From: Proteiniphilum acetatigenes DSM 18083
GTDB lineage: Bacteria; Bacteroidota; Bacteroidia; Bacteroidales; Dysgonomonadaceae
Reading direction: 5' to 3'
Assembly (NCBI RefSeq): GCF_000380985.1
Contig: NZ_KB905693.1
Coordinates: forward strand, 310,001 to 374,000
DNA: 64,000 nt
Shown in pieces: positions 10,360 to 33,090 of this stretch (within the stretch, counting starts at the first letter, position 1; every line of letters begins with the position of its first letter). The position numbers were made by a program, and so were the translations under genes. Under the pieces are notes generated by a model. It did no database searches. It was not told where the DNA came from and saw only the letters and a list, made by a program, of their open reading frames with translations.

Positions 10360-11123
10360 TGCTAAACTTTACCAGTTTTAAGTAAATTACGGCAAAACAA
10401 TCCGGTAAAAATATTTATCTATATTTAAACGTGTTGATTATAAGCGGATTGTGTTCAGCCTTAATACCGTGATTATTTTATTGCACAGTATTAAGTTTAT
10501 TAAAAAAATTACCTGACAGTCAAACAAAAGTAGCAATAAATATTTGAATAAGATTTTATTTACGATTTTTTAATCGATGTTTTCTATTGATTTTTAAGTT
10601 AAACCGTACGATTATTTCGTAAAATTTTTCGCTCCAACAGGACGCAGAAGAATTGTCATACCTTAGCCTGTTTAGAAAGAAAAAAACTAAATATGCTAAT
10701 AAACAGATATTTATCGTGTATGGTAAGGCGACATATAAAAAAAATCGATAAATGATATTTTGGATAGAGATTTACTTTAACAATGTTGTCAAAATGAAAA
10801 ATAACTTAACTTTCGCATATGAATTTGAAATAGGTGTAACTAAAGAGGAAACCTTGTGAAACTTGAAAAAATAATAAAATAAAACCGATAAAACGATTAA
10901 GAATGGAGCATTAAAACATAATCACCGGCTGAATTGTTTAAATCTGAATGATAGAGTCTCTCAGTTACAGAAAGATATCGGTGAGACCTTCAAAAAGACG
11001 AATAAAACTATTTCGTTAAGTAAGCGTAAAGTGAATTTATTTACTTTGCCGAACGTAGAATTAACAATCGAGGAGCGAAGGCGACTCAAAATGTAATATA
11101 ATTGAACAATCAATATAAACTTT
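10360..11123. other. Long AT-rich intergenic region with a possible degraded frame
   Basis: This 764-base gap separates divergent genes and is very rich in A and T. A minus-strand -7-like box (TACTTTTG, 10525-10532) may serve the M23 gene, but no good -33 box accompanies it. On the plus strand, the frame from about 10900 to 11095 is open for over 60 codons without a start codon and reads like a charged helical peptide; it could be a gene remnant or chance. The end of the region carries a repeat of the palindromic leader family. Confidence 0.5.
11006..11058 (+). repeat. Palindromic leader repeat A (upstream of the DUF4256 gene)
   Basis: The block ACTATTTCGTTAAG (11008-11021) is followed by an inverted repeat of nine pairs with a two-base centre (11028-11036 with 11039-11047, one G-T pair) and then GCCGAACGTAG. 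The 16-base block AACTATTTCGTTAAGT is identical to one in copy D. Confidence 0.65.
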
Positions 11124-11699
11124 ATGGGGAATAAGATGCAAGATAAGAATGTGTTACCGGAAGAACAGGCGAACGCGTTGCTGGCTACCTTGCGGATCCG
11201 GTTTGAGAAGAATATGAATCGGCACGAAGGCCTTGACTTTCGCAAGATACAAAGCCGGTTTGAAGAGTATCCGGAAAAGTTGTGGTCACTCAACGAGATG
11301 GAGGAGACCGGCGGAGAACCCGATGTGATAGGATATGACAAACAGCTTGACAAGTACATCTTTTGTGATTGTTCGCCTGAAAGTCCTAAAGGCCGAAGGA
11401 GTGTATGCTATGATCCCGAGGCGCTGGCATCAAGAAAAGAGCATAAACCCCGGCACAGTGCCATCGGGATGGCTTCCGAGATGGGAATAGCGTTGCTGAC
11501 GGAGGAGCAGTATCATGCCTTGCAGCGGTTAGGTGAGTTCGATACCAAAACCTCAAGCTGGATCGTGGCGCCTCAGGATGTCAGGAAGTTGGGCGGTGGA
11601 TTATTTGGGGACCGACGGTATGGACGGGTCTTTATCTATCATAATGGTGCCGAGTCTTATTATGCAGCCAGAGGATTTCGCGGTATTTTAGAGGTGTAA
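11124..11699 (+). CDS. DUF4256 family protein
   Basis: Predicted 191-residue soluble protein without signal peptide. The sequence matches what I know of the DUF4256 family: the opening helix with LLATLRIRFEKNMNRH, then SLNEMEETGGEPDVIGYD, a Cys pair in YIFCDCSPESPKGRRSVCYD, and DTKTSSWIVAPQDVRKLGGGLFGDRRYGRVFIYHNGAESYYAARGFRG broken over the last 60 residues. Length is normal for the family. No reaction has been assigned to it as far as I know. The ATG at 11124 is chosen; a second ATG four codons later is possible. Confidence 0.85.
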   Translation: MGNKMQDKNVLPEEQANALLATLRIRFEKNMNRHEGLDFRKIQSRFEEYPEKLWSLNEMEETGGEPDVIGYDKQLDKYIFCDCSPESPKGRRSVCYDPEALASRKEHKPRHSAIGMASEMGIALLTEEQYHALQRLGEFDTKTSSWIVAPQDVRKLGGGLFGDRRYGRVFIYHNGAESYYAARGFRGILEV

Positions 11700-11713
11700 A
11701 GTTAAAAAATGAT

Positions 11714-11721
11714 TATCTTTG
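11714..11721 (+). promoter_or_regulatory. -7 promoter box for the DUF1080 lipoprotein gene
   Basis: TATCTTTG fits the Bacteroidota TAnnTTTG box. It lies 15 bases after the previous stop codon and about 140 bases before the next start. No clear TTTG box is seen at the right distance upstream. Confidence 0.45.
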
Positions 11722-11759
11722 CTCCTTATTATTCAATGACATTAAACATTTTTTACGCT

Positions 11760-11826
11760 CGGTAAAACAACTGACGACAAACCGAAGCCAAAAACAAATT
11801 TGTTTGAATTTTGGTGAGGTGCGAAG
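11760..11826 (+). repeat. Palindromic leader repeat B (upstream of the DUF1080 gene)
   Basis: Degenerate member of the family. It contains a perfect 14-base palindrome AAACAAATTTGTTT at 11792-11805, preceded by CCGAAGCC and followed by GAATTTTGGTGAGG, similar to the flanks of copies C and E. It would lie in the leader of the mRNA. Confidence 0.5.
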
Positions 11827-11862
11827 GGAAAAAGAAAATGTTTATTTAAACCGCTCACAATC

Positions 11863-12657
11863 ATGAAGTATAGCAAATTATTCATTTTTTTTAGTGTTAT
11901 TTCAATTGCATTTCTGGTTTCCTGTAACGGGAAAAGGACGGGCGAAGCTGAATGGGTACAGCTCTTTAACGGTAAAGATATGACCGGATGGACTCTGAAA
12001 ATTACCGGATATGAAATGGGAGATAATTTTGGAAATACATTCCGGGTAGAAGATGGGATAATTAAAGTGCGCTACGAGGCGTATGATTCATTTGATAACC
12101 GCTTCGGACATCTGTTCTACAAAGATCAATTCTCACACTACAGACTCCGTGTGGAATACCGTATTGTAGGTGACCAATGCCCCGGTGCGCCCGGCTGGGC
12201 ATATAAGAACAGCGGGATTATGATTCATGGACAGACACCTGAATCGATGGACAAAGATCAGGATTTTCCCACTTCCATCGAGGTGCAGTTACTTGGCAGC
12301 GATTCCCTGGTGGAGCGTACCAACATGAATGTGTGTACTCCCGGAACCAATATCGTGATGGATGGAAAGTTGACCCTGGATCATTGCATCAACTCATCTA
12401 CCGATTATTTTTATGGTGAAGAGTGGTTTACCGCAGAAGTAGAGGTGAGGGGCAATGAAGTGATAAGGCATATCATCAATGGCGATACCGTGCTTCAATA
12501 CTCGCAACCACAATTGGATGAACGGGATGCAACCTATGCCAAATTGGTTGAGCTGAATGGTGGTAACAAAATGCTGAGCGGTGGCACTATCTCCCTGCAG
12601 AGCGAAGGACATCCTATCGATTTTCGTAAAGTAGAGATTATGTTGCTGGAGGAATAA
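11863..12657 (+). CDS. DUF1080 (3-keto-disaccharide hydrolase family) lipoprotein
   Basis: Predicted 264-residue lipoprotein; the signal MKYSKLFIFFSVISIAFLVSC ends in Cys 21. The rest is one DUF1080 domain, a concanavalin-like beta sandwich, recognised by WVQLFNGKDMTGW, FRVEDGIIKVRY, FGHLFYKDQFSHYRLRVEYR, NSGIMIHGQ, SIEVQLLG and GTISLQSEGHPIDFRKVEIM. Some family members hydrolyse 3-keto-glycosides; others have no known activity. The lipid anchor puts it at the cell surface or in the periplasm. It has no carbohydrate-related neighbours here, so the substrate cannot be inferred. Confidence 0.85.
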   Translation: MKYSKLFIFFSVISIAFLVSCNGKRTGEAEWVQLFNGKDMTGWTLKITGYEMGDNFGNTFRVEDGIIKVRYEAYDSFDNRFGHLFYKDQFSHYRLRVEYRIVGDQCPGAPGWAYKNSGIMIHGQTPESMDKDQDFPTSIEVQLLGSDSLVERTNMNVCTPGTNIVMDGKLTLDHCINSSTDYFYGEEWFTAEVEVRGNEVIRHIINGDTVLQYSQPQLDERDATYAKLVELNGGNKMLSGGTISLQSEGHPIDFRKVEIMLLEE

Positions 12658-12706
12658 ATATATACAGCCCTTCCATGGCCTCAACGGTGATGGATTACTG
12701 TAAAAA

Positions 12707-12743
12707 TAAAAACCCGCCTCATATCTGCGAAGCGGGTTTTTTA
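12707..12743. terminator. Bidirectional terminator between the DUF1080 gene and pckA
   Basis: AAAACCCGC at 12709-12717 pairs perfectly with GCGGGTTTT at 12732-12740, with A-rich and T-rich flanks, so it can act in both directions between these convergent genes. Confidence 0.85.
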
Positions 12744-12801
12744 TGGATAATGCTCAACGAATTCGTTGTGAAAACTAACCGTTAAGCAAATTTCTAACTT
12801 A

Positions 12802-14394
12802 TTAGTCTAATTGCGGTCCTGAAGGGATCAATGCTATGGCAGCATCGTTGTCGCAATATTGCTTGAAGTTTTCGATATACATGGCGGCCAGTTTCTTGGC
12901 TTTGGCTTCCCACTCACTCTTGTCGGCGTAAGTATTACGCGGGTCGAGGATGTCAGAAACACCTTCCAGTTTTGCAGGAGCCGTCAGGTTCATGATCGGG
13001 ATGTGTACCTTTTCTGCATTTTCGATTGAACCGTCGATGATAGCATCGATGATGGCACGAGTATCTTTCAGAGAAATACGTTTTCCTGTCCCGTTCCAAC
13101 CGGTATTTACCAGATATGCTTTGGCGTTGTGCTGATTCATCTTTTCAACCAACGTTTTTGCATACATAGTGGGATGCAGCGTGAGGAACGCTTCTCCGAA
13201 AGCAGGAGAGAATGAAGGCTGCGGCTCGGTGATACCACGCTCGGTACCTGCCAGTTTGGAAGTAAATCCGCAGAGGAAGTGGTATTGTGCCTGGTTGTCG
13301 TCGAGGATAGATACCGGAGGCAATACGCCGAACGCGTCAGCCGACAGATAGATGATTTTGTTAGCGTGACCGGCACGTGACGGAAGAACGATCTTGCTGA
13401 TGTGGTAGATAGGATACGAAACGCGGGTGTTCTCAGTAGTAGAACCGTCAGTGAAATCGATATTACCTTCATCATCTACAGTTACGTTTTCCAGGAGTGC
13501 ATCGCGACGGATAGCACGCCAGATGTCCGGTTCGTTTTGCTCGCTCAGGTTGATCACTTTTGCATAACAACCACCTTCGTAGTTGAATACTCCATGTTCA
13601 TCCCATCCGTGCTCGTCGTCACCAATCAGGTAACGTTTCGGGTCGGCAGATAAAGTAGTTTTTCCTGTTCCGGAGAGACCGAAGAAAATAGCTACGTCAC
13701 CATCTTCGCCTACGTTGGCAGAGCAGTGCATCGAAGCAATCCCTTTCAACGGCAGATAGTAGTTCATCAGGGCGAACATACCTTTTTTCATTTCACCGCC
13801 GTACCAGGTACCACCGATCACCTGCATTCTCTGGGTGAGATCAAATAATGTAAAGTTTTCAGAGTTCAAACCTTGCTCCTGCCATTTGTCATTGGTTACT
13901 TTTGAACCGTTGAGGCATACGAAATCGGGCTCACCGTAGTTGGCCAGTTCGTAGTGCGAGGGACGGATAAACATATTGGTTACGAAGTGGGCCTGCCAGG
14001 CAACTTCCATCACGAAACGTACTTTCATACGTGTGTCGGCGTTGGTGCCGCAGAAAGTGTCCACTACATACAGTTTTTTTGCTTTGGAAAGCTGATTGGC
14101 TACCAACCCTTTGCAGTAGTCGAATGCATCCCGGGTACAAGGACGGTTGATAGTACCATCCCACCACAAGGTATCTCTTGTGATGTCATCTTCCACGATG
14201 AATTTATCTTTAGGAGAACGGCCGGTGAATTTACCGGTGTAAACGGCAGTAGCACCGCTCTTTGTTAATTTAGCTCTTTCGAAACCTTCATTCGCGGGAT
14301 TCATCTCATCCTGGTAAAGCGTCTCGTAGGAAGGATTATGAACGATTTCAAAATCGCCCGTAATGCCATACTTGCTTAAATCTAAATTTGCCAT
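12802..14394 (-). CDS. pckA: Phosphoenolpyruvate carboxykinase (ATP)
   Basis: Predicted 530-residue cytoplasmic enzyme that interconverts oxaloacetate plus ATP with phosphoenolpyruvate, CO2 and ADP. In fermentative Bacteroidales it often runs toward oxaloacetate for succinate formation. Visible motifs are [14 protein letters not shown] near residues 52-65, the P-loop [11 protein letters not shown] near 244-254, the metal-binding [11 protein letters not shown] near 260-270, and [17 protein letters not shown] around 380-396. Length is normal for the ATP-dependent family. It stands alone, with a terminator after it and a leader of about 145 bases before it, and a possible promoter at 14545-14552. 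Confidence 0.97.
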
Positions 14395-14451
14395 TTTGAT
14401 AAAATTTGGGTTTAATATTATGAATGAATAAAACTTGCATGTAGACCAACG

Positions 14452-14527
14452 TTTTCGTTAAGCAATATGGGCAGAAGCCAAACTTGTTTGGATTATGCCG
14501 TTGTGAGAAAACGACTAACTTTAGTGA
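14452..14527 (+). repeat. Palindromic leader repeat C (pckA leader)
   Basis: The block TTTTCGTTAAGCAATA is followed by CCAAACTTGTTTGG (14478-14491), then ATTATGCCGTTGTGAG, then a second palindrome ACTAA-CT-TTAGT (14514-14525). The palindrome centres are about 35 bases apart. The pckA gene runs on the opposite strand, so its mRNA would carry the reverse complement. Confidence 0.7.
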
Positions 14528-14544
14528 ACCTAAAAACAGGCATA

Positions 14545-14552
14545 CAAAAATA
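14545..14552 (-). promoter_or_regulatory. Possible -7 promoter box of pckA
   Basis: On the minus strand this reads TATTTTTG, matching TAnnTTTG, with a TTTC at the -33 distance. Transcription from here gives a leader of about 145 bases that contains repeat C. Confidence 0.45.
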
Positions 14553-14653
14553 TACAAATTCTTTCAAATAGGAAAATAATTAAAGAAATTTTTCTTTAAT
14601 TGGCTGTTTTTTTATCCGCACATCTTTTTTTAAACAAAAAATCATATCAAAAG

Positions 14654-14684
14654 TTTAGCTGAGTACAGAAAATCATTACCTTTG
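14654..14684 (+). promoter_or_regulatory. Promoter of upp
   Basis: TTTA at 14654-14657 and TACCTTTG at 14677-14684 are 19 bases apart. The leader to the upp start is about 150 bases and contains repeat D. Confidence 0.65.
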
Positions 14685-14719
14685 TTTTCCGGAAATAATT
14701 ACTTCGTCCAGTCGGTTGC

Positions 14720-14786
14720 GGAACTATTTCGTTAAGTCAACTGAGCAGAGGATAAGCAAGCTTATACTATGCCTTGGCGAGAACTG
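14720..14786 (+). repeat. Palindromic leader repeat D (upp leader)
   Basis: GAACTATTTCGTTAAG (14721-14736), identical over 16 bases to copy F, is followed by a palindrome ATAAGC-AA-GCTTAT (14752-14765) and ACTATGCCTTGGCGAG. Confidence 0.7.
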
Positions 14787-14841
14787 GGAATATTTGTTCT
14801 ACACCGTGATAAGCTGGAAGAGATAAAATTGATTTATAAAA

Positions 14842-15501
14842 ATGGAAGTAAACAACTTTTCGGACAGCAATTCTTTACTTAATTCTTTTATCCGTGAAAT
14901 AAGGGATATCACCATTCAGAACGACCGGCTCCGGTTTCGCCGAAACATAGAACGTATCGGTGAGATTATGGCTTACGAAATCAGTAAAGGTTTTCATTAC
15001 AAGAAGATTGAAGTAAGCACGCCGCTTGATGTGGCTGAGGTGAGTGTTCCGGAAGAGGATATTGTAATCGCTACTATTCTCAGGGCCGGACTTCCGTTCC
15101 ATCATGGTATGTTAAATTATTTCGACGGAGCGGAAAATGCATTCGTCTCTGCATACAGAAAATACAAAGAGACCGGTCATCAGTCGTTCGACATTCATAT
15201 CGAATATATCGCATCGCCCTCGATAGAAGGGAAGACCTTGATCCTGGCCGATCCGATGCTGGCGACAGGAAGTAGTATGGAGTTGACCTACAGGGCACTG
15301 CTTACCAAAGGTACGCCGGCAAATATCCACATAGCCACGATCATTGCCAGCAGACAGGCGATAGACTATTGCAAAGCCAATTTTCCTGAAGAAAAAACAA
15401 CTATCTGGGCTGCCGCCATTGATCCCGGCCTGAATGAATCGTCCTATATCGTGCCGGGTATCGGGGATGCGGGTGATCTTGCTTACGGGGAGAAGATTTA
15501 A
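14842..15501 (+). CDS. upp: Uracil phosphoribosyltransferase
   Basis: Predicted 219-residue salvage enzyme that makes UMP from uracil and PRPP. The PRPP-binding loop is visible as LILADPMLATGSS near residues 133-145, the substrate region as ATILRAGLPFHHGML near 75-89, and the uracil-binding end as YIVPGIGDAGDLAYG near 203-217. The N-terminal region differs from that of the E. coli type but matches Bacteroidales proteins of this size. It has its own promoter and a long leader. The stop codon overlaps that of the convergent glycosyltransferase gene by a few bases. Confidence 0.93.
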   Translation: MEVNNFSDSNSLLNSFIREIRDITIQNDRLRFRRNIERIGEIMAYEISKGFHYKKIEVSTPLDVAEVSVPEEDIVIATILRAGLPFHHGMLNYFDGAENAFVSAYRKYKETGHQSFDIHIEYIASPSIEGKTLILADPMLATGSSMELTYRALLTKGTPANIHIATIIASRQAIDYCKANFPEEKTTIWAAAIDPGLNESSYIVPGIGDAGDLAYGEKI

Positions 15502-16487
15502 TCATAAAATTTTTTTTCGAACGCTTTGAATTCACCTTTTTTCAAAATCAACCGTTTCCATACGGCAGATAAAAACCCTGTACCATATCCTGTCAATTGG
15601 ATCCAGGCTGCTGCTATACTGTAAAGCGCTACGCCGACTGATCCGTTTTTTATGAGGGAGTCGATAAAGACAAGTAGCGAGTAAGACAGAGGAATAAGAA
15701 GAAACAGAGGGTGAATGACAGAGAGGACAAGGATTAATGCCATACCGGCGACAAAAAATGCGGGTAACAAATGTACTATCTTCAGTGATCCGGGGTGAGC
15801 AAGATGCAGGTTGATGCGTGCAATGCCTGAGTTGTATACCTGCTTGAAAAATTGTCCGAAGGTACTTCTTCGTTTGTGGTAGATAAAAGCATCGGAGATA
15901 AGTGCTGTCCTGAAACCGTTCTTCAGTAATCGCAGGCTAAGATCGATATCCTCTCCAAATCGCATAGAACCATATCCTCCTATCGTATCAAATGCTTTTT
16001 TGGAAACTCCAAAATTGAAACTCCGGGGATTGAATTTCTCCATAGACCTTTTACTGCCGCGAATTCCGCCGGTAGTAAAGAAAGAGGTCATGGAGTAGTT
16101 GATTGCTTTTTGTATTGTGGTGAATGTAGGTAGTGCTGCATCGGGTCCTCCATAAGCATCAGCGTACTGCTCACGGAGGGACTGGGAAACAGTCTCTATG
16201 TAACGAGGCGGTATGATGCAATCCGAGTCGAAGAAGATAAGATAATCGTATTTTGCCTGAGCTGCACCCACATTTCTGGTAAGACCCGGCCCGGAATTGG
16301 GTTTCTCGAAGTAAGTAAGATCGAGTTTATCGCGATATTTTGTCACTACGGTATCGCTTTTTCGGGTAGACCCATCCTCAACGATTACTACTTCAAATCG
16401 TTTGTCTGTTTGTTCACAGAGGCTTGCAAGAAGTTCGTCCACTTCATCAGGACGATTATAGAGAGGTATAATAATTGAAAAAAACAT
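15498..16487 (-). CDS. Family 2 glycosyltransferase with C-terminal membrane helices
   Basis: Predicted 329 residues. Residues 1-230 form a GT-A domain: FSIIIPLYNRPDEVDELLAS, EVVIVEDGS, the metal-binding FFDSDC near 90-95, FNFGVSKKAFDTIGGYG and the catalytic-region GEDIDLSLRL. The last 90 residues contain two to three membrane helices (LLPAFFVAGMALILVLSVI and LFLLIPLSYSLLVFIDSL). Such enzymes add sugars to lipid-linked or surface glycans, but donor and acceptor cannot be told from sequence. It stands alone, convergent with upp and divergent from the DUF4369 gene. Confidence 0.88.
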   Translation of the reverse strand: MFFSIIIPLYNRPDEVDELLASLCEQTDKRFEVVIVEDGSTRKSDTVVTKYRDKLDLTYFEKPNSGPGLTRNVGAAQAKYDYLIFFDSDCIIPPRYIETVSQSLREQYADAYGGPDAALPTFTTIQKAINYSMTSFFTTGGIRGSKRSMEKFNPRSFNFGVSKKAFDTIGGYGSMRFGEDIDLSLRLLKNGFRTALISDAFIYHKRRSTFGQFFKQVYNSGIARINLHLAHPGSLKIVHLLPAFFVAGMALILVLSVIHPLFLLIPLSYSLLVFIDSLIKNGSVGVALYSIAAAWIQLTGYGTGFLSAVWKRLILKKGEFKAFEKKFYD

Positions 16488-16675
16488 AATATCTACCCGT
16501 TTATTCAGCGCAAAGCTAATTATTTTATTTTATTTTCCCATTACAGGCCATCTATCTCTTCTTACTCTCTGATTTTTTACAGTCTCAATCTGATCCCTCT
16601 TGTTTTATCCTTTTTCTTCTCAATCCCGGCATTCTCGTTTAAAAACAAAAAACAGTTAAATAAATGTGAAAAATA

Positions 16676-16706
16676 ATTGAATATTTAAAAAAATAGAATA
16701 TCTTTG
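16676..16706 (+). promoter_or_regulatory. Promoter of the DUF4369-yifB operon
   Basis: ATTG at 16676-16679 and TATCTTTG at 16699-16706 lie 19 bases apart, close to the Bacteroidota consensus. The leader is about 80 bases. Confidence 0.6.
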
Positions 16707-16793
16707 TCCTTCCGAATAAATATTGTTTTTTTGATAGGTTGCGAAAAAATTGCAGAATATCAGTAAAGATGGTTAATGAGAAGTTGTTGATAT

Positions 16794-17912: not shown

Positions 17913-17934
17913 GTGCAAAAAAAGACTTGGTAAC

Positions 17935-19473
17935 ATGCTGGTCAAATTGTTTGGAGCGGCTGTACAAGGTATCGATGCAACGCTCATTACCATTGAAGTT
18001 AACTGTTCAAGAGGGATTAGGTTTATGCTGGTAGGCCTGCCCGATACTTCCGTGAAGGAAAGCCATGAACGCATCGTATCAGCCATTGAAGTGAACGGGC
18101 TGAAATTCCCACGTCAACAGATCGTTATCAATATGTCGCCTGCCGATATCCGGAAGGAAGGTTCGGCTTACGACCTGCCGCTCGCTGTCGGTATCCTCGC
18201 CGCCTCCGGCTCCGTTTCTTCCGGCAGGCTTGGTGATTACCTGATGATGGGTGAATTGTCGCTCGACGGAACAATTCTTCCTTTAAAGGGAGCACTCTCT
18301 ATCGCGTTAATGGCGAGGGAGAACGGATTCAAAGGGTTTATCCTGCCTGTGGCAAATGCGAAAGAAGCCGCCGTGGTAGAGGGATTGGAGGTTTATGGAA
18401 TAAACAATATCCGTGAGGTGGTCGCTTTTTTTAACGGTGAACAGAAGTTGCAACCTACAACGGTCGATCTGCAACAAGAGTTTTTGGAAGGGCGCTCTTC
18501 TTTCGAATTCGATTTTTCCGATGTAAAGGGACAGGAGAATGTGAAACGGGCGTTAGAGGTAGCTGCTGCCGGAAGCCATAACGTTATTATGGTAGGTCCG
18601 CCGGGATCCGGCAAGTCGATGATGGCAAAACGAATGCCCTCTATCCTGCCTCCTTTTTCGTTGGAAGAGGCGTTAGAGACGACAAAGATACACAGTGTGG
18701 CAGGAAAGACCGATCTGGACAGTTCGCTCACGACCAACCGTCCCTTTCGTTCACCTCACCATACTATCAGCGATGTGGCGATGGTGGGGGGAGGTTCATA
18801 TCCCCAACCCGGTGAAATAAGCCTGGCACATAATGGTGTACTTTTTCTCGACGAGTTGCCGGAGTTCAGTAGAAATGTGCTTGAAGTGATGCGACAGCCG
18901 TTGGAAGATCGTAAGATCACTATATCACGTGCCAAATTCACGGTAGATTATCCAGCCGGATTTATGCTGGTAGCGGCAATGAATCCCTGCCCCTGCGGCT
19001 ACCATAATCATCCCGACAAAGAGTGTGTATGCCCTCCCGGAGCTGTACAAAAATATCTCAACAGAGTCTCCGGACCACTTCTCGACCGGATTGATATCCA
19101 GATAGAGATAGTACCGGTTCCGTTCGAAAAGATCTCCGATACTACACCGGCGGAACGGAGTGCAGATATCTGCAATAGGGTTGTGAAAGCAAGAGAGATT
19201 CAGTTACACCGCTTCAGAAACAGGAAAGGTGTCTTTTGTAATGCGCAGATGAACGGAAGGATGTTGCGTGAATATGCTTCACCCGACCAAAAAGGAATGA
19301 AATTGCTACAGGCAGCGATGGAAAGACTCAATCTTTCTGCCCGTGCCTACGACCGTATACTGAAAGTATCCCGAACTATTGCTGATCTCGACGGGAGTCA
19401 ACAGGTGCAACCGTCACACCTGGCAGAGGCGATCAACTACCGGAATCTCGACAGGGAGAATTGGGCATTGTAA
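17935..19473 (+). CDS. YifB/ComM-family AAA+ ATPase
   Basis: Predicted 512 residues starting at the ATG at 17935, which gives the family's usual N terminus MLVKLFGAAVQGIDATLI; an earlier in-frame ATG would overlap the previous gene. Residues 1-170 are the S5-like ChlI/Lon-protease-type fold. The Mg-chelatase-like AAA domain follows: Walker A GPPGSGKSMMAKR near 221-233, Walker B VLFLDELPEF near 301-310, then MNPCPCGYHNHPDKECVCPP with a cysteine cluster, and GPLLDRIDIQIE. In Vibrio, ComM is a helicase that speeds branch migration during natural transformation. Cells without competence also have it, so a wider recombination role is likely. Confidence 0.93.
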   Translation: MLVKLFGAAVQGIDATLITIEVNCSRGIRFMLVGLPDTSVKESHERIVSAIEVNGLKFPRQQIVINMSPADIRKEGSAYDLPLAVGILAASGSVSSGRLGDYLMMGELSLDGTILPLKGALSIALMARENGFKGFILPVANAKEAAVVEGLEVYGINNIREVVAFFNGEQKLQPTTVDLQQEFLEGRSSFEFDFSDVKGQENVKRALEVAAAGSHNVIMVGPPGSGKSMMAKRMPSILPPFSLEEALETTKIHSVAGKTDLDSSLTTNRPFRSPHHTISDVAMVGGGSYPQPGEISLAHNGVLFLDELPEFSRNVLEVMRQPLEDRKITISRAKFTVDYPAGFMLVAAMNPCPCGYHNHPDKECVCPPGAVQKYLNRVSGPLLDRIDIQIEIVPVPFEKISDTTPAERSADICNRVVKAREIQLHRFRNRKGVFCNAQMNGRMLREYASPDQKGMKLLQAAMERLNLSARAYDRILKVSRTIADLDGSQQVQPSHLAEAINYRNLDRENWAL

Positions 19474-19490
19474 GGTGGGAAGGTGGGAAG
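19472..19490 (+). repeat. G-rich GGTGGGAA repeat directly after the yifB stop codon
   Basis: AAGGTGGGAAGGTGGGAAGG begins within the yifB stop codon and runs up to the broken end of the four-helix-bundle gene fragment. Related tracts are at 19706, 28283 and 36733. Confidence 0.6.
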
Positions 19491-19691
19491 GCTGAAGGTG
19501 CCTCCAGAAATTCTACAAAAGAATTTATTCAGTTTATTTACATATCCAACGGATCATTGTCAGAAATTGAAATGCAATTAGAGTTAGCAGTAAGATTGGG
19601 ATTTATACAGGAGCAGAAAATTCCGGTTGAGAGTATAAAGCATATCAGATCAATGCTTTTAGGGCTTATCAGATCCCTGAAAGATAAATAA
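19491..19691 (+). pseudogene. C-terminal fragment of a four-helix-bundle (S23-type) protein gene
   Basis: The frame encodes AEGASRNSTKEFIQFIYIS, then GSLSEIEMQLELAVRLGFI and a last helix with IRSMLLGLIRSLKDK. This matches the second half of the small four-helix-bundle proteins related to those encoded in 23S rRNA intervening sequences, from the conserved IAEG turn onward. The first half, normally about 50 residues, is missing and the G-rich repeat sits at the break. No start codon belongs to it, so I call it a remnant. Function of the intact family is unclear. Confidence 0.75.
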
Positions 19692-19705
19692 TAACCCAAA
19701 TCCTT

Positions 19706-19734
19706 TCCACTCTTCCACCTTTTCACCTTTTCTC
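19706..19734 (-). repeat. G-rich repeat at the stop codon of the M15 peptidase gene
   Basis: On the minus strand the gene ends AAAAGGTGA and continues AAAGGTGGAAGAGTGGAAAGG. The stop TGA is itself part of the first repeat unit, as at yifB and at the methyltransferase-like gene. Confidence 0.55.
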
Positions 19735-20454: not shown

Positions 20455-20522
20455 CGAGAACGATCTTTATGGCGTTTCCTGTTTGACTCTTTCCTGAAGA
20501 GGCGACCGGATGAAACGGACTA

Positions 20523-22355: not shown

Positions 22356-22404
22356 AGCTCTATTGGACAATTATTCTTTAAATAATATAGTGAAAGCCGG
22401 GAGA

Positions 22405-22510
22405 AAAGCCAAACTTGTTTGAATTATTCCGTTAAGAGGGTGCAAAACGAGTTTACTCGTTTGCCGAACACAGGAATAATCTAACTCGTTGGACTTATCC
22501 GAGGCGTATC
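22405..22510 (+). repeat. Palindromic leader repeat E (between dnaX and the DUF5106 gene)
   Basis: Three palindromes in a row: CAAAC-TT-GTTTG (22410-22421), AAACGAGT-TT-ACTCGTTT (22445-22462) and CTAAC-TC-GTTGG (22481-22492, one T-G pair). Centres are 38 and 33 bases apart. Between the first two is AATTATTCCGTTAAGAG. A -7-like box for dnaX (CAAATATA on the plus strand at 22518-22525) would place the element in the dnaX leader. Apart from this the 22356-22689 gap shows nothing clear. Confidence 0.7.
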
Positions 22511-22689
22511 CATTCTACAAATATACGAAAAATATTCTGAACTTGTCTGCCGGTCATTTCTCATCTTCTTTTATAAGAAAATGGTATTTTTACCCGTATG
22601 TGTGGTTTTAAAAAGAAAATCATGTAATTTTGAGGTGTAATCAAACTACTTCTGGAAGAAATAGTCTGTTATAGTTGAACATATAGAAA

Positions 22690-23661: not shown

Positions 23662-23785
23662 GTTATGCATAAGCTGTCGTCTTCCTAAAGCTTTCTGTTG
23701 ATTGTGTAATTAATTTATAATCAGATTTTTATTTTTAATTAGACATTAATATTAACATTTAGAAGTATTTTTTTTGGCAAAATAG

Positions 23786-23849: not shown

Positions 23850-23920
23850 GTATAGTTAATGGATTTAGTCTACTGCGTGAAGCAATGGCTTTATCTGAGT
23901 ATTAACCTAACTAAATTTTT

Positions 23921-24412: not shown

Positions 24413-24428
24413 GTTTTGATAATGAATT

Positions 24429-24468
24429 AAAAACGGGCATCGAAATATAATTCGGTACCCGTTTTTTT
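24429..24468 (+). terminator. Rho-independent terminator after the TlpA-like gene
   Basis: AAAAACGGG pairs with CCCGTTTTT, with an inner ATCGAA/TTCGGT arm, and a run of seven Ts follows the stem. Confidence 0.8.
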
Positions 24469-24555
24469 AATTTTCGGCAATTAATTTTGTATCCGCAACT
24501 TTTCTGTTTCCGGTTTGTTCCGGCTTACAACTTTTTCCGGCTTAATTCCGTTTAT

Positions 24556-25302: not shown

Positions 25303-25398
25303 ACAACTATTTTATTTATAATTACTAATTACTAATGAGTTTATGGGGCGAAAATCCGAGATTTTGAATTGCAACAATGTTCGGAGGAGCCAAAATAG

Positions 25399-25441
25399 AC
25401 ATGCTCAAATCTTGAATTTGAAATCTGAAATCTTGAATCTA
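25399..25441. repeat. AT-rich AATCTTGAAT-type repeat
   Basis: Imperfect repeats of AAATCTTGAATTTGAAATCT lie about 95 bases upstream of gpmA. A related stretch (AAATTCCAAATC then TTTTGAATCTGGAATTTT) is found at 36860-36910 just before the adenosyltransferase gene. Confidence 0.5.
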
Positions 25442-25503
25442 ATTTATTCTCTGCAAAACTACATAAAATTGGCCTAATTGCAGGCGATCGGGATGTAAAT
25501 TTA

Positions 25504-26886: not shown

Positions 26887-26928
26887 AATTTCTTTCTTGT
26901 AATAACCCGGACGATCTATTACTTCGTC

Positions 26929-28215
26929 CTATTTCTTTGTCATAATATCCAGCACCAACTGATCGGTCTCCTGCATGCCACTGTTACCAATGCGTGCCAG
27001 ATTCTCTATAGTCCGGTCGATATCTTCATCGACGATCCCTTCCTGAGAAGTTACCACCTCATTCTCCATAGCCATCACTGCCGACAAGGCTGCGGTTGAT
27101 ACTCCGCTGGCAATCTTCAGTGCACAGCCGGGTTTAGCCCCGTCGCAGATCATGCCTGTGATATTCGCGATCATATTTTTGGCCGCATATACGATCTGAT
27201 CATAAGTGCCCCCCATCAAATAAGTTATTCCACAGCTTGAGCCGGTAGAGGCCACCACGCACCCGCAAAGGGCCGAAAGCCGGCCTAATTGCTGTTTGAT
27301 ATAGATGATCAGCAGGCTACTCAGCGTTAACGCGCGGATCAGTTGCTCCTCACTGCACGATTCGCTTTCGGCATAGGTAAGGATAGGCATGGTAGCTGCT
27401 ATCCCCTGATTACCGCTGCCGGAATTGCTCATTACCGGTATCAATCCTCCGTCCATTCTCATATCGCAGGCTCCTGCCGTAGAAATCACCATGCGGGTAT
27501 GCAGGTTATCTCCGAAGACATGAAGTCCGTTCCTGTTCTTCAGGCTACCCGCTACATTATGTCCGTAGCTGTGAAGCATTGCTTCGCCTGATGCTTTCCT
27601 GTTCATACGGGCAGCTTCCAGTATGAAGGAGAGCTCTTCGACAGGTGAATCTACGGCATATTCGTAAACGGTACGGAAGTTAAGCGGTACATCATTTTCT
27701 GTTTTATCCTCTTTGCTTGCGATAATCGGGTCGTCAAGCAGCACTTCTCCGTTTTTCTCTATATAAGTAAAATGGTTATGGTTGCCGGAAATGACGGAAA
27801 CCGCCGATTCCCCGCCCCCGCTACACCGGATCCTGATATAAAGCTTATCGGTAATACCGGTCTGCTGGCAGATCTCTATCCTTCCTTCCTCAATAAAACG
27901 CGTCCCTTGTTCTACTTCTTCGGGAGTCACAAGTTTTAGTAACTCAAGCCCTTCTTCCGGTTTACCGGTCAATGCTCCCAACGCAATGGCGATGGGAAGG
28001 CCGGTCATGCCAGTCCCCGGAATCCCTACGCCCAATGCATTTTTCAGTACGTTGGCACTCAGGAAAGCCTCAACCTTTTCGACTTTTCTTCCAAGGACGC
28101 TGCACGCTTTGGCGGTACAAAGAGCCACAGCAACCGGTTCAGTGCATCCGATGGAGGGAATTATTTCCTGCTGCATAAGTAGATGAATACGGGTTCTTTT
28201 GTCGGTTGATAACAT
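26929..28215 (-). CDS. CyuA/UPF0597-family L-cysteine desulfidase-like protein
   Basis: Predicted 428 residues of the serine-dehydratase-alpha-like UPF0597 family, to which the archaeal L-cysteine desulfidase and E. coli CyuA (YhaM) belong. They break cysteine into pyruvate, ammonia and sulfide with an iron-sulfur cluster. Visible marks: IIPSIGCTEPVAVALCTAKA at the N terminus (conserved Cys and Glu), GVGIPGTGMTGLPIAIALGAL, VMSNSGSGNQGIAATMPIL near 265-283, and GMICDGAKPGCALKIASGV with the cluster Cys residues. No catalytic residue appears lost. The MATE gene follows after 42 bases. Confidence 0.88.
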   Translation of the reverse strand: MLSTDKRTRIHLLMQQEIIPSIGCTEPVAVALCTAKACSVLGRKVEKVEAFLSANVLKNALGVGIPGTGMTGLPIAIALGALTGKPEEGLELLKLVTPEEVEQGTRFIEEGRIEICQQTGITDKLYIRIRCSGGGESAVSVISGNHNHFTYIEKNGEVLLDDPIIASKEDKTENDVPLNFRTVYEYAVDSPVEELSFILEAARMNRKASGEAMLHSYGHNVAGSLKNRNGLHVFGDNLHTRMVISTAGACDMRMDGGLIPVMSNSGSGNQGIAATMPILTYAESESCSEEQLIRALTLSSLLIIYIKQQLGRLSALCGCVVASTGSSCGITYLMGGTYDQIVYAAKNMIANITGMICDGAKPGCALKIASGVSTAALSAVMAMENEVVTSQEGIVDEDIDRTIENLARIGNSGMQETDQLVLDIMTKK

Positions 28216-28282
28216 AACAAAGTACAGGGAATGAGCAATGCGGGAACAAAATTAATCAAAATTCCCCACATTCCCAATGATT

Positions 28283-28352
28283 AAGGTGGAAAGGTGGGAA
28301 GGTGGGGAGGTGGAAAGGTGGAAAGGTGTGGGAAGGGAAAAAGTAAAAAGGT
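28283..28352 (+). repeat. G-rich GGTGGAAA repeat tract
   Basis: About eight units of AAGGTGGAAAGGTGGG type lie between the divergent cysteine desulfidase-like and DUF2851 genes. Unlike the other tracts it does not touch a stop codon. It is directly upstream of the DUF2851 promoter. Confidence 0.65.
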
Positions 28353-28381
28353 GTAAAGTAGGTGAATTTGTCGGAAGTCGG

Positions 28382-28413
28382 TTTGGATTTTTAGATAATT
28401 GATTGTATATTTG
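28382..28413 (+). promoter_or_regulatory. Promoter of the DUF2851 gene
   Basis: TTTG at 28382-28385 and TATATTTG at 28406-28413 are 20 bases apart, close to the Bacteroidota consensus. The leader is about 15 bases only. Confidence 0.65.
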
Positions 28414-28432
28414 AGGTTTAAATCTGACTGCT

Positions 28433-29803
28433 ATGCCTTACAAAGAAGAACTGCTGCACTATATATGGAAGTTCGGGCTTTATCCTTCTGACTCGCTTAA
28501 GACGACGGATGGGCAGAGGGTAGAGGTGATTGACCCGGGAATGCATAATCTGCATGCCGGGCCTGATTTCTTTAATGCCAAGATAAGGATCGGCGACAAG
28601 CTATGGGCCGGAGATGTAGAGATACATCGTTCTTCGGATGAATGGGAACGGCATGGCCATCATACCGATAAAGCATACAACTCGGTGATCCTGCATCTTT
28701 CGGAACATGTGAACATGGCTATAAAGAGCGAGAAGGGACAACAGATACCACAGTGCGAGTTGTTAGTTCCCGACGAAGTGCGTAAAAATGCTGATTATCT
28801 GATCTATAGCCATAGCTCTCTTCCCTGCAAGGATCATTTTTCTTCCCTTCCGGAGATGTTTATACGTTCTTTCCTTGGTCGGTTAGCCATTGAGCGGCTG
28901 GAAAGAAAAACCAATGATATCTTTACTCATCTCGATCGTTTTCACCAATCCTGGGATGAAGTGTTCTATGTGTTGCTCACACGTAATTTCGGATTTGGAC
29001 TGAATAGCGATGCATTTGAGAGACTTGCCCTTTCACTGCCATTTAAATGTATCCGGCGGCACGGTGACAGCCTGTTTCAGGTGGAAGCATTACTCTTCGG
29101 ACAGGCAGGGCTGTTGGAAGAGTCTATAGACTGGGAAGCTAGGGAGACTGGAAGACTGGGGAGAACCCGTAAAACGGAAGTAACGCCGGAGATGCAAAAA
29201 AAGAGGGAATCGGGAGATAGGAAGGATGATTACTTCCTGCAGCTACATAACGAGTACCGTTTCCTGAAAAACAAATATTCACTGACGCCTCTGGAGAGTT
29301 ACTTATTCAAACGAATGAGAGTCCGTCCCCGTTCATTCCCTGAAATGCGTATCGCACAACTGGCAGCATTACTGCAATCGTCCGGTAGACTCTTCTCTTT
29401 GGTGCTTGAGCAAGAGGAAGTTGATGACTGGATGTTACTATTCATGGCATCTCCTTCCAACTATTGGCGCCGGCATTACTCTTTCGGAAAACAATCACCC
29501 GAGTCAGTCGGACAGTTGGGCAGTGCGTCCCGGCAGGTATTGCTAATCAATACTGTGGCGCCAATACTATTTGCCTATGGTAAAAAAACTGCGACTGAGA
29601 GCTATTGCGAAAGAGCTATTCACCTGCTGGAGTCACTGAAACCCGAGAGAAACGTTATCGTATCCGAATTTAATGAAGCGGGAATAATTCCACAGAACGC
29701 ATTTGATACACAGGCGCTCATCCAGTTGAGAAGAGCTTATTGTGATCCACGGAAATGCCTTTTCTGCCGGATAGGACATAGGCTGCTGAGTTGTAAAAAA
29801 TGA
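28433..29803 (+). CDS. DUF2851 family protein
   Basis: Predicted 456-residue cytoplasmic protein of the Bacteroidota-wide DUF2851 family, known to me only as conserved and uncharacterised. Family marks are EELLHYIWKFGLYP at the start, GPDFFNAKIRIGDKLWAGDVEIH near residues 44-66 (a nuclease-like Asp/Glu pattern), DKAYNSVILHLSEHVN, and CDPRKCLFCRIGHRLL at the end with Cys residues that could bind a metal. Residues about 238-263 (ARETGRLGRTRKTEV and following) look like translated simple repeat: the DNA at 29142-29220 is built of GGGAGACTGG-like units also seen near 36760. A DNA or RNA role is a guess. Confidence 0.85.
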   Translation: MPYKEELLHYIWKFGLYPSDSLKTTDGQRVEVIDPGMHNLHAGPDFFNAKIRIGDKLWAGDVEIHRSSDEWERHGHHTDKAYNSVILHLSEHVNMAIKSEKGQQIPQCELLVPDEVRKNADYLIYSHSSLPCKDHFSSLPEMFIRSFLGRLAIERLERKTNDIFTHLDRFHQSWDEVFYVLLTRNFGFGLNSDAFERLALSLPFKCIRRHGDSLFQVEALLFGQAGLLEESIDWEARETGRLGRTRKTEVTPEMQKKRESGDRKDDYFLQLHNEYRFLKNKYSLTPLESYLFKRMRVRPRSFPEMRIAQLAALLQSSGRLFSLVLEQEEVDDWMLLFMASPSNYWRRHYSFGKQSPESVGQLGSASRQVLLINTVAPILFAYGKKTATESYCERAIHLLESLKPERNVIVSEFNEAGIIPQNAFDTQALIQLRRAYCDPRKCLFCRIGHRLLSCKK

Positions 29804-29833
29804 AAAAATTGTATGAGACTGCATAAAACATTG

Positions 29834-29841
29834 TACATTTG
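29834..29841 (+). promoter_or_regulatory. -7 promoter box of the Ig-like lipoprotein gene
   Basis: TACATTTG matches TAnnTTTG. An ATTG about 21 bases upstream (29809-29812) could be the -33 box. Distance to the start codon is about 33 bases. Confidence 0.45.
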
Positions 29842-29874
29842 TGTCGAAAATAGCATTATACACACAAAGAAATA

Positions 29875-31818
29875 ATGTTACATAAAATATCCACATTCTT
29901 CTCCTGGCTTTTTCTTCTGACTGTATTGGCTGTCTTGAGTCACTCCTGTGCCAATATGGCTGCACCCACCGGAGGGGCCTATGATATAGATCCGCCGGTA
30001 GTAAGAAGAGCTACGCCCGCTTTTAATTCGGTTAACGTTTCCCCCTCGAGGATCGAGATCGAATTTGATGAGAATATCAAAATTGAGAAACCCAATGAGA
30101 AGGTAATTGTAACCCCTCCCCAGAAGAATATGCCGGTAATCCGTTCGGCAGGTAGAAGAGCTATTGTAGAATTGAATGACACGTTACTCCCCAATACGAC
30201 CTATACGATCGACTTTACCGATGCTATCGTGGATAATAACGAGGGTAATCCGTTGGAGAATTTTGTCTATTCCTTTTCTACCGGCGACCGGATCGATACA
30301 TTGTCTATTGCCGGAAAAGTGCTTAATGCGCAGGATCTGGAACCTGTTACGGGGATATATGTAGGTATCCACTCCAATCACCACGATACGGCGTTTACCC
30401 GTATTCCGTTCGAGCGGATCTCCAGAACAGATTCCCGTGGCAATTTCACGGTGAGGGGGATGGCGCCCGGAAAATACAGGGTGTTTGCACTGAATGACCT
30501 GAATAGGGATTATAAATACGATAATCCGCAGGAAAATATTGCCTTTCTGGATTCTATCGTTATACCCTCTACCGTGCCGGCGGTACGACAAGATACTATT
30601 TTTCAGGATAGTCTTACTATCGATACAATACATACTGTCTCTTATACCCGCTTTTTGCCGGACGACCTAGTGTTGCGTTCTTTCCTGTCCGATTTCCAGC
30701 GACAATATCTGCAGAAGCATGAGCGTCCCGAAGCACATAAGCTCAATCTCTTTTTCGCTGCGCCGACCGACAAGCCGACTTTCTTTTTGATCAATCCGGA
30801 AGTAAGGAGTAATGATTGGTATGTAGCCGAGCGGAGTGCTAAAAATGATACCCTTATGCTTTGGATTACCGATTCATTGATCTATCAACAGGATTCACTG
30901 CGTATGCAGATTAATTATCTCCGAACAGATTCGCTCAACAAAAATTATATTGCGACGGATACACTCAATTTCAATATGAGGCGCACGGGCCGGGACCGTG
31001 GTAATACGGAAAAGAAAGAAGAGGAAGAAGAACCGATCAGATTCCTGGGTGTTAATACTAATGTCCAATCGACATTTGAGTTATACAACCCTATCAGGAT
31101 AGAATTTGAACAGCCTGTTACAGCATTCGATTCTACCTATGTGCAATTGCTGGCCGAGGTGGATTCTTTATTCGAAGCGGTTCCTTTCCGTCTGGAATCC
31201 GACTCGCTGAACCCACGCAAGTTTACCTTGCGTCCCCATTGGGAACCTGGAGGAAAATACAAGATACTCATCGACTCGGCGGTGATCACCAGTCATTATG
31301 GACTTTGGAACAATAAGTACGAGCAATCCTTCACTGTAAAGCCTTTGGATCAGTATGGAAACCTGGAGATATCCATCACCGGACTTCCTGAAGAGAAACC
31401 GGCTTTCGTGGAGTTACTCGATAAATCGGATAAACCTTTTCGGAAAAGTTACGTCAAAGCGAACAGGGCAAGATTTCAGGATCTGCCTCCCGGTGAGATC
31501 TATGCACGCATTGTAATAGATGAAAATGAGGATGGTGTATGGACTACCGGAAATTATGAGGAGGGGCGACAACCGGAAGAGGTGTTCTATTATCCCGGTA
31601 AATTTGTAATAAGGGCTTTTTCAGATCATTCGGAGGATTGGAATGTTCATGCAAGGCCTGTTATCAGCCAGAAACCATTGGAGATAACCATAAATAAACC
31701 GGAAGAGAAAAAGCGGCGTAATCCGAATCTGGAGAGAGAGCAACAACAGCGGCAAAATCAGCAGGGTTCTCCCTTCTCCGGAGGAGGCAGTGCAGGAACT
31801 CCTTCTAACATGAGATAG
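29875..31818 (+). CDS. Ig-like domain (Big_5) lipoprotein
   Basis: Predicted 647-residue lipoprotein; the signal ends in SHSC with Cys near residue 25, followed by ANMAAPTGGAYDIDPP, a start common in this Bacteroidota family. Residues 35-135 form a bacterial Ig-like domain (Big_5 type: PVVRRATPAFNSVNV, IEIEFDENIKIEK, ANTTYTIDF-like, NFVYSFSTGD). Residues 140-210 look like a carboxypeptidase-regulatory-like fold (GNFTVRGMAPGKYRVFALND). The tail from about 610 is rich in Arg, Gln and Gly. It is widely conserved in the phylum and probably acts in the cell envelope; the function is unknown to me. The DUF3108 gene follows 55 bases later. Confidence 0.8.
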   Translation: MLHKISTFFSWLFLLTVLAVLSHSCANMAAPTGGAYDIDPPVVRRATPAFNSVNVSPSRIEIEFDENIKIEKPNEKVIVTPPQKNMPVIRSAGRRAIVELNDTLLPNTTYTIDFTDAIVDNNEGNPLENFVYSFSTGDRIDTLSIAGKVLNAQDLEPVTGIYVGIHSNHHDTAFTRIPFERISRTDSRGNFTVRGMAPGKYRVFALNDLNRDYKYDNPQENIAFLDSIVIPSTVPAVRQDTIFQDSLTIDTIHTVSYTRFLPDDLVLRSFLSDFQRQYLQKHERPEAHKLNLFFAAPTDKPTFFLINPEVRSNDWYVAERSAKNDTLMLWITDSLIYQQDSLRMQINYLRTDSLNKNYIATDTLNFNMRRTGRDRGNTEKKEEEEEPIRFLGVNTNVQSTFELYNPIRIEFEQPVTAFDSTYVQLLAEVDSLFEAVPFRLESDSLNPRKFTLRPHWEPGGKYKILIDSAVITSHYGLWNNKYEQSFTVKPLDQYGNLEISITGLPEEKPAFVELLDKSDKPFRKSYVKANRARFQDLPPGEIYARIVIDENEDGVWTTGNYEEGRQPEEVFYYPGKFVIRAFSDHSEDWNVHARPVISQKPLEITINKPEEKKRRNPNLEREQQQRQNQQGSPFSGGGSAGTPSNMR

Positions 31819-31873
31819 CAACCGGGAGGTATGCGGTAGTTACTGCAGTTCTAAATCCCGTAAAATTAAAATT

Positions 31874-32680
31874 ATGATCAATCAAAAAGTTACATCGATC
31901 CTTGTTTCACTGTTTTTATTTTTAGGTGTAATGCGGGTAGATGCACAATGTAAACTGACCAACACTGCTTTTGCGAGCGGCGAGGATATACGGTATGATC
32001 TCTATTTGAATTTAGGTTTTTTCAATGCGCGTGCCGGGAGAGGATCGCTCACGGTGACCGAAGCGAATTACCGCGGCGAAAATGCTTATAAGATGGTGAT
32101 GTTGTTCAATACCTCCGGGCTGGCAGGTAATCTGTACACTGTAAACGATACGCTCACCTCTTTTATTGATAAGGATCTTCGTCCTTTGTTATTTACCAAA
32201 GAGGCATTTGAGGGAAAAGACTATTCTGTGGAGAGGCAGTCCTATACCTACGAGGGAGGTAAAGTGAAAATACGTGCTTTCCGTACCTGGAATGGGGAAG
32301 AACAATTTGATGAGGTGGTAACTACCGATCATTGTACGTATGATTACCTCTCTGTATTGCCATACATCCGGAATCTCGATTATACCGGCATGAAGCCTGG
32401 TGACAGCCATCATATTCGTTTCATTGCCGGAAGAAAACCTGTGAATATGTATGTCAACTACCAGGGTGTTTCATCGGTAAAAGCAGGAAATGGAAAAAAA
32501 TATGAAGTGATTAACCTCACAATGACTATTCTCGACGATGCTTTCACCAATCAGAAAGAAGCTTTAAAGGCTTCGCTTACCAATGATAAAAACCGTATCC
32601 CGGTAATTATAGACACTTCTCTAAGAATCGGTTCAATCAGAGCTGTCTTGCGGGATGTCTCGGGAACCAGGCATCCGTAA
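31874..32680 (+). CDS. DUF3108 family periplasmic protein
   Basis: Predicted 268 residues with a cleavable signal (MINQKVTSILVSLFLFLGVMRVDAQC). The DUF3108 pattern covers most of the protein: FASGEDIRYDLYLNLGFFNARAGRGSL broken at residue ~60, then LYTVNDTLTSFIDKDLRPLLF, FDEVVTTDHCTYDYLSVLPYIRNL and KPVNMYVNYQG. DUF3108 proteins are beta-barrel-like envelope proteins of unknown role. It follows the Ig-like lipoprotein on the same strand, and both may form one envelope-related unit. Confidence 0.82.
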   Translation: MINQKVTSILVSLFLFLGVMRVDAQCKLTNTAFASGEDIRYDLYLNLGFFNARAGRGSLTVTEANYRGENAYKMVMLFNTSGLAGNLYTVNDTLTSFIDKDLRPLLFTKEAFEGKDYSVERQSYTYEGGKVKIRAFRTWNGEEQFDEVVTTDHCTYDYLSVLPYIRNLDYTGMKPGDSHHIRFIAGRKPVNMYVNYQGVSSVKAGNGKKYEVINLTMTILDDAFTNQKEALKASLTNDKNRIPVIIDTSLRIGSIRAVLRDVSGTRHP

Positions 32681-33090
32681 TATTCGGTAGTTATTCAATT
32701 GATATTCAATGCCTATTCGATAATAATACGAACGAATTGAAGCGAAAATCCCGCAAGATGGAAAATAACAGCGTAGTGGAACAACGGGCGGGAGGCGAAC
32801 GAATAACGATAGAGCCGAATAACACGTGTAAAGATAGTAAATAAAAGAGAATAAATAAATAGGGATTAAAATTCTGAAATTTCTCCAAAAAGAACGTATC
32901 TTTGTAAACTGCTAAAGATTACGAACTATTTCGTTAAGCAATACGAACAGAAGACAAGCTTGCCTGGAATGTTTTCGATAAGCGAGCACATAGGCAAAAC
33001 TTGTTTTGACTATGTCGAGTGTAGAAAAAAACTAAGTTTACTTGAATATGTCGTTGCAAGAAATAGTCTAATTTTAATGAAAATAAAGGT
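32681..33090 (+). promoter_or_regulatory. Leader and promoter region of rex
   Basis: A -7 box TATCTTTG lies at 32897-32904 with a weak -33 match TCTG about 20 bases upstream; transcription would start near 32910 and give a leader of about 180 bases. Most of that leader is repeat F. The first part of the gap (32700-32840) has two CGAACGAAT direct repeats and no recognisable gene. Confidence 0.55.
32923..33062 (+). repeat. Palindromic leader repeat F (rex leader)
   Basis: Longest member of the family. GAACTATTTCGTTAAGCAATA is followed by palindromes CAAGCTTG (32955-32962), CAAAAC-TT-GTTTTG (32995-33008) and AAGT-TT-ACTT (33034-33043), spaced 43 and 37 bases. Each of the last two is followed by an ATGTCGNNTG-type block (ACTATGTCGAGTGTAG, AATATGTCGTTGCAAG). 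Confidence 0.7.

Follow-up and report, generated by a model that had tools for sequence, protein, structure and literature searches.

A 64,000-nucleotide stretch of the Proteiniphilum acetatigenes DSM 18083 genome (contig NZ_KB905693.1, positions 310,001 to 374,000; the whole of it is called the window here, and positions are counted from its first letter) contains six intergenic elements, copies A to F, which a preliminary description had taken for one family of palindromic repeats in the leaders of housekeeping genes. Copies A, C, D, E and F derive from one repeat unit of 70-80 nt, while B belongs to a second family, and the unit probably defines a non-autonomous family of mobile hairpins, the fold of which would be selected for mobility. 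Exact empty sites, insertions nested in one another and an amplification that looks recent make mobility a simpler reason for the conserved fold than a role in the leaders of neighbouring genes.

The repeat unit and its paired changes

The block TTTCGTTAAG, from which the copies had been recognized, is the left side of the unit, which consists of one long imperfect hairpin followed by a small 3′ palindrome. The plan of the unit is AA|Y, closing stem, GTTAA, an inner hairpin with a 2-nt loop, the other half of the closing stem, CT, the small palindrome and GAA|. In an alignment, A1, of 30 own-genome units that carry no insert (32 were found, and two were dropped for odd 3′ ends) the closing stem comprises 7-8 pairs and starts directly after AA followed by C or T; its halves enclose the unpaired GTTAA(G), a short weak helix, the inner hairpin, with variable arms and most often TT at its centre, and an unpaired TAG or GAG. 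The closing stem itself is found as CTATTTC/GAAATAG, GTTTTC/GAAAAC, CTTTTCC/GGAAAAG, CATTTTC/GAAAATG, TATTTGC/GCAAATA and CTATTCGC/GCGAATA, among other variants.

Paired cells make up 87.1% of the A1 alignment, and its covariation score of 0.351 is to be compared with 0.167 for shuffles and 0.045-0.112 for registers slid along the sequence, with two of the five measures (double-change pairs and further pair types) not above the shuffles. A second set, A3, is formed by 68 distinct units at loci of other genomes and was fitted to R1, the covariance model built from the A1 units, so that it leans towards that model; it scored 0.417, against 0.018-0.090 for slid registers, and all five measures lay above nearly every shuffle. 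In A3 the closing stem has 95.2% of its cells paired and double changes at six of the eight pairs, the short second helix only 56.5% of its cells paired. The joint variation of the palindrome arms around a mostly TT centre, as originally described, is borne out by scores far above the controls on most measures, and the excess over both shuffled and slid controls in A1 and A3 is not what random AT-rich palindromes would give. The paired changes are also what led to the proposal that the fold is under selection; this part stands on most measures, with mobility as a simpler reason for it than a leader role. As a separate observation, identical apical arms carry either TT (67 units) or AA (16) centres among 88 scored of 105 own units (alignment A2), with few intermediates, as though the tips of the hairpins flip; an AA centre was found in none of 61 scored among 67 units from other genomes.

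Chance resemblance of AT-rich palindromes is an exceedingly improbable explanation of the family. Short matches of such base composition are not rare, the reversed control of TATTTCGTTAAG having 60 in the own genome at up to one mismatch. TATTTCGTTAAG itself, however, occurs there 112 times, which is more than chance. Against chance also stand the covariation in other genomes, the exact empty sites described below and the matches to the whole model, of which the own genome contains at least 141 at E≤1 (150 of 3169 candidates scored). The latter are the further copies that a search of the genome had been expected to reveal, and they are grouped in 123 clusters, 17 of which hold more than one match.

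With RNA parameters the top strand was calculated to be approximately 3 kcal/mol more stable than its complement (94 and 65 units). By taking shuffled sequences as the reference, the mean z values of the two strands become nearly equal (−2.24 and −2.08 in the first set, −2.29 and −1.98 in the second). G-U outnumbers A-C at the paired columns (76:25 and 152:74, some columns being poorly aligned), and a G-A mismatch is common in the inner stem (48 of 65 units in A3). A folded single strand, be it RNA or DNA, is weakly favoured over a symmetrical cruciform.

Empty sites, nesting and amplification

The insertion point is best seen at copy C, a complete 79-nt unit (14450..14528, plus strand) that sits in ACCAA|CCT between pckA (minus strand) and upp (plus strand). 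The site is uninterrupted in three related genomes (G010, G015 and G007), and a fourth, G012, holds a diverged insertion. Where G015 reads ACC AAC CTAAAAAC, the window has ACCAA, 79 nt ending with GAA, and then CCTAAAAAC; because CAA (own genome and G015) or TAA (G010) stands on the left and GAA at the right end, the G belongs to the element. Other orthologous empty sites were found for copy E (missing in G015), copy F (in G012) and copy B (in G007), and a unit of G010 has its empty site in G015. The place in front of rex is a case of its own, with different units in the own genome (32926-33081) and in G015 (L131:265-341) and none in G012, a situation that may reflect either repeated insertion at one place or replacement.

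Paralogous empty sites were sought for the 76 own units with recognizable ends by joining the 30 bases up to the left AA to the 30 bases after the right GAA. The joined flanks, with no duplication, match fetched sequence for 44 of the 76, and 36 remain once tandem junctions and matches next to the unit itself are screened out, approximately six of these being less clean with a unit or a fragment on the right. The 36 sites appear to span about a dozen contexts. Two of these are places in a repeat of approximately 100 nt (GTATGAA...TATGAA), and others lie in the B family (CCGAA|ACC), in copy E's outer repeat and within units. With one host repeat common to many of the sites, they are not independent and correspond to fewer events than sites. 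Units lie 3′ of AA almost without exception, and the left trinucleotide of the 76 is GAA in 64, CAA in six and another one in six; the G on the right served to define where a unit ends and is no evidence in itself. Units nest inside each other and inside other repeats, and the composites formed in this way recur as larger units. Units inserted in copy E's outer repeat have stems that resemble the repeat bases following them, a likeness explained by such composites spreading together; a stem copied from the target was considered and discarded, the stem of copy C being absent from its empty site. In another genus of the family (G105), a unit with a different stem, CTATTGC/GCAATAG, lies in a similar host repeat.

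One genome of the genus, G020, looks to have amplified the element recently. It contains 101 R1 matches at E≤0.001, including 21 abutting same-strand pairs in 16 arrays, with a spacing of 79 in 13 of the 21. A single G020 unit used as the query gave at least 60 matches in the same genome (40 of 50 candidates scored), 52 of which cover at least 70 of its 83 bases and five of which are 100% identical; the same query matched short copies only, with no long autonomous version among them. The identity between sites has a mean of 0.85 and a median of 0.92. Six of the nine adjacent pairs examined are 0.92-0.99 identical and gapless, the other three 0.52-0.58, which suggests that the arrays grow in two ways, through duplication on the spot and through the arrival of different units; truncated neighbouring units also occur.

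Spread through RNA, in which a host reverse transcriptase would copy transcribed units into GAA sites, is an unlikely route, to which the hints of a strand-specific fold, the multimers and fragments of units and the growth in copy number would be suited. Target-primed reverse transcription usually truncates one end, and most copies keep both, as the 52 long matches among the 60 of G020 indicate. An RNA route has been proposed for the GC42 clusters of yeast mitochondria, in the sections of PMC4478555 considered here.

Of the 39 genomes of the genus, 35 have R1 matches at E≤1e-4, as have 30 of 62 genomes from other genera of the family, the latter with mostly few and weaker matches. Within the genus no copies were found in G005, G008, G033 and G036. 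Outside the family, three of 24 genomes of the order gave weak matches (E≤0.01). A pattern scan of named genomes matched eight records, six of them from Proteiniphilum, and copy F as the query found no match in plasmid and phage collections. Rfam gave no match in the window at the gathering threshold, nor at three loci at E≤0.5, in keeping with the initial view of a family (apart from copy B) without a known name, and no description of this repeat family was found in the open-licence literature.

Neighbouring genes and candidate movers

The position of the clusters relative to genes rests on a home-made gene caller, and the expectation for the gaps is length-weighted and was derived from 584 kb of sequence (G015, G010 and the window), 88% of it coding. 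Only one of the 123 clusters overlaps an open reading frame by more than 30 nt, and three lie at stretch ends; the sole overlapping one (L022:1498-1573) is at the 3′ end of the reading frame, the stop of which falls inside the unit. The 119 clusters with both neighbours occupy 81 codirectional, 34 divergent and four convergent gaps, against 76, 32 and 11 expected, a depletion of the convergent class (p 0.018) in a pattern that is otherwise mostly as expected from tolerated insertions. A predicted start codon lies downstream of 115 of the 119, at a median distance of 73 nt, and 53 of the 81 codirectional clusters have the sense direction (p 0.007), for which a mild benefit or a lower cost of that orientation is possible.

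These start codons, the sense bias, the convergent depletion and the differing units at the same place before rex are what would be adduced for cis-acting RNA leader elements, the fold of which regulates or protects the transcripts of downstream genes. Such a role is nonetheless decidedly unlikely as the reason for the fold. The gap classes are otherwise near expectation, divergent gaps show no bias (13 of 27 clusters in the sense direction, among those clearly nearer one gene), orthologous sites are empty in relatives, and copies are nested and tandem. In the window itself, copies C and E lie in divergent gaps and are antisense to the nearer gene, which is pckA for copy C, and copy D is decayed. 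By taking into account the near-expected gap classes, the modest sense bias and the orientation of C and E, the elements do not emerge as a property of housekeeping-gene leaders, as had been thought. Most copies look to be without function for the neighbouring gene, passengers more than switches.

If the family is mobile, a structure-recognizing enzyme is its likely mover. Acting in trans, the enzyme would recognize a folded single strand, perhaps the GTTAAG-bearing one, through the shape of the stem and the conserved unpaired bases; it would then cut beside GAA and join the unit after the AA of a target. Recognition of shape would leave the stem sequence free to change while pairing holds, and the copies would afterwards decay in place. 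It is conceivable, if rather doubtful, that the units form a new class of minimal mobile element of approximately 80 nt, for which a fold plus a small number of unpaired bases, and not a terminal sequence, would be the defining trait. Moved by an enzyme outside the known transposase families, such an element would insert into its own copies at GAA and so build ever larger composites that move as units.

A special case of the mobile reading, with which its probability overlaps, is a REPIN-like or IS200/IS605-like element moved by a sporadic or lost transposase of the Y1 (RAYT/TnpA) or Y2 type; this deserves serious consideration as a minority possibility. Insertion beside a short target with no visible duplication is as in IS200/IS605- or IS91-type elements (a 2-base duplication could still be there), the end of the element is like the target, and hairpins are a suitable substrate. 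Y1 remnants are present in two high-copy genomes, and the parts of PMC6006769 used here describe Bacteroidetes genes of subclass 2.6 that are bordered by atypical secondary structures, copies of which recur at other places of the genome; this is the nearest published lead and one to which the gene test made here gave no support. Y1 genes (PF01797) gave no match in the own genome and matches in six of the 39 genomes of the genus; the gene is uninterrupted in G012 and G032, whereas G006, G018, G061 and G010 have fragments or stop-bearing copies. Two of the high-copy genomes, G010 and G061, thus contain remnants only, and five others (G000, G007, G015, G020 and G030) contain none. Y2 genes (PF04986) occur in seven of the 39, none of which is among the seven genomes with the highest copy number. 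R1 applied to 12 loci (eight around Y1 matches and four of the 12 Y2 matches) gave one match with E 0.46, at a Y1 locus, and no RAYT flanked by repeat copies was seen at the eight. The units begin with AAY and the closing stem, with no GTAG, GGAG or CGTC at the 5′ foot of the hairpin; GTAG occurs 3′ of the inner hairpin, in some units only. Abutting units are head to tail instead of in inverted pairs, and the 75 matches of G015 have no replication-strand bias.

Three further candidates were rejected. Targeting of the lagging strand fails on the G015 matches just mentioned. An IS91-type Y2 mover was promising for the GAAC target that such elements reportedly use, but is at odds with the distribution of Y2 genes. 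As to integron attC sites, GTTAAGC and GTCTAAC fit the core boxes they are said to have, but no complementary arms were seen across them on the strand (no integrase search was made).

Several of these results weigh against mobility itself. The Y1 and Y2 genes are missing or degraded where copies are most abundant, the loci around them are virtually devoid of units, and the lack of strand bias is contrary to what lagging-strand targeting predicts. Furthermore, the near-equal z values of the two strands make strand specificity weak, a target-site duplication as in classical miniature inverted-repeat transposable elements (MITEs) would here be AA at most, a 2-base duplication indistinguishable from none, and the sense bias in codirectional gaps along with the scarcity of convergent ones leaves room for a role in transcripts. 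Mobility is also deduced from sequence comparison and not from observed transposition.

Copies in the window and known repeats

The blocks and palindromes of the window were located where they had been reported, with the 16-nt identities between D and F (GAACTATTTCGTTAAG) and between A and D (AACTATTTCGTTAAGT). Copy A (11008..11106, plus strand; R1 match of 35.8 bits at 11006) is a unit that follows AA, ends with GAA and is split by a 29-nt GA-hairpin mini-element found by pattern scan after GTAGAA (11061..11089, plus strand). The mini-element has 32 pattern matches in the scanned stretches of the own genome, is preceded by GAA in 29 of them and obeys the same GAA rule as the units. Copy B (11734..11840, plus strand) has a AACTGACGACAAACCGAA core, with four pattern matches in own-genome stretches, gives no R1 match and corresponds to a 107-nt gap relative to G007. 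Copy D (14724..14799, plus strand; 39.2 bits) is a decayed unit upstream of upp that has lost the 3′ half of its closing stem; it is present and diverged in G010 and G015 and absent from G007 and G012. Copy E (22424..22493, plus strand; 62.8 bits) is a 70-nt unit with the stem TTATTCC/GGAATAA, for which a paralogous empty site exists, inside an outer repeat (GTGAAAGCCGGGAG..., ...CCGAGGCGTATCC) with the approximate ends 22390..22516, the start of which has 12 pattern matches in own-genome stretches; G015 lacks this stretch. A lone 3′ unit tail (GAAATAGTCT...TTGAA; repeat D11, pattern scan) follows at 22658..22679 on the plus strand. Copy F, upstream of rex, consists of an outer unit of 79 nt without its insert (32926..33081, plus strand), which is present elsewhere in that uninterrupted form, and of an inner unit of 77 nt (32970..33046, plus strand; 90.0 bits) placed at the base of the apical hairpin of the outer one. 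The recurrence of palindromes every 33-43 nt is best read as the distance between the apical and the 3′ terminal palindromes inside units.

Other repeats were also observed in the window, namely a 14-nt direct tandem repeat (TTGACAATTGACAATGGACAA-like, D3; 36784-36853), dispersed GGTGGGAAGGTGGAAAGG tracts with an 8-nt rhythm (D1; 19467-19499, 28278-28334 and 36728-36768) and two GTATGGAACTCGC blocks 88 nt apart (D10; 45325-45447), which resemble the ends of the host repeat of approximately 100 nt entered by units elsewhere in the genome. Relatives have shorter versions of the stretches 19477-19715 and 28275-28379 or lack them.

By its features the family resembles small hairpin repeats without a known mover. 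It lacks the tested features of REP/RAYT systems and, of those of classical MITEs, the conserved terminal inverted repeats, in place of which there is a terminal complement of 7-8 nt that varies by paired changes. The small dispersed repeats (SDRs) of cyanobacteria, which Elhai et al. in 2008 are said to have described, reportedly are intergenic, measure 21-27 nt, lie inside other repeats and have a mover that is unknown. On this description they share with the present units the very small size, the intergenic position, the insertion into other repeats and the lack of a known mover, and differ from them in that the units here are of 70-80 nt, with a covarying closing stem, tandem arrays and the GAA rule.

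The GC clusters of yeast mitochondria, akin to double-hairpin elements, are likewise small palindromic mobile units with an unsettled mover, which merge with one another into new elements and have a short target, AG, as the units here also have a short one; DNA and RNA routes are both discussed for them in the sections of PMC4478555 seen, where they are organellar and GC-rich and where neither a covarying closing stem nor 79-nt arrays are described. REP/REPIN sequences are of the GTAG type, with a RAYT, or of the CGTC type, without a dedicated transposase (PMC3733652, in part), the latter being reported from Bacteroidetes too in the portions consulted of PMC3116915, PMC3733652 and PMC6006769. 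As far as these sources go, they have in common with the present family intergenic hairpins in many copies and a likely single-strand recognition; in contrast to them, no RAYT is intact in the high-copy genomes searched, and the units have no GTAG or CGTC at the 5′ foot of the hairpin, a head-to-tail arrangement instead of inverted pairs and a stem sequence that is free to vary. The pneumococcal BOX, RUP and SPRITE repeats, in the excerpted account of PMC3049150, are similarly intergenic and modular, with tandem modules, and can occupy transcribed regions; BOX has the order boxA-boxB-boxC, whereas the units enter the GAA sites of one another.

The movement of the smallest bacterial repeats is a long-standing question, and in this family the point of insertion can be located with almost single-base precision, with many filled and empty sites supplied by a single genus. 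The seemingly recent amplification in G020 means that the mover can be sought by comparing genomes with high and with zero copy number. Finally, a regulatory RNA need not lie behind strong covariation in a bacterial leader, since a mobile element selected for its fold can produce the same signal.

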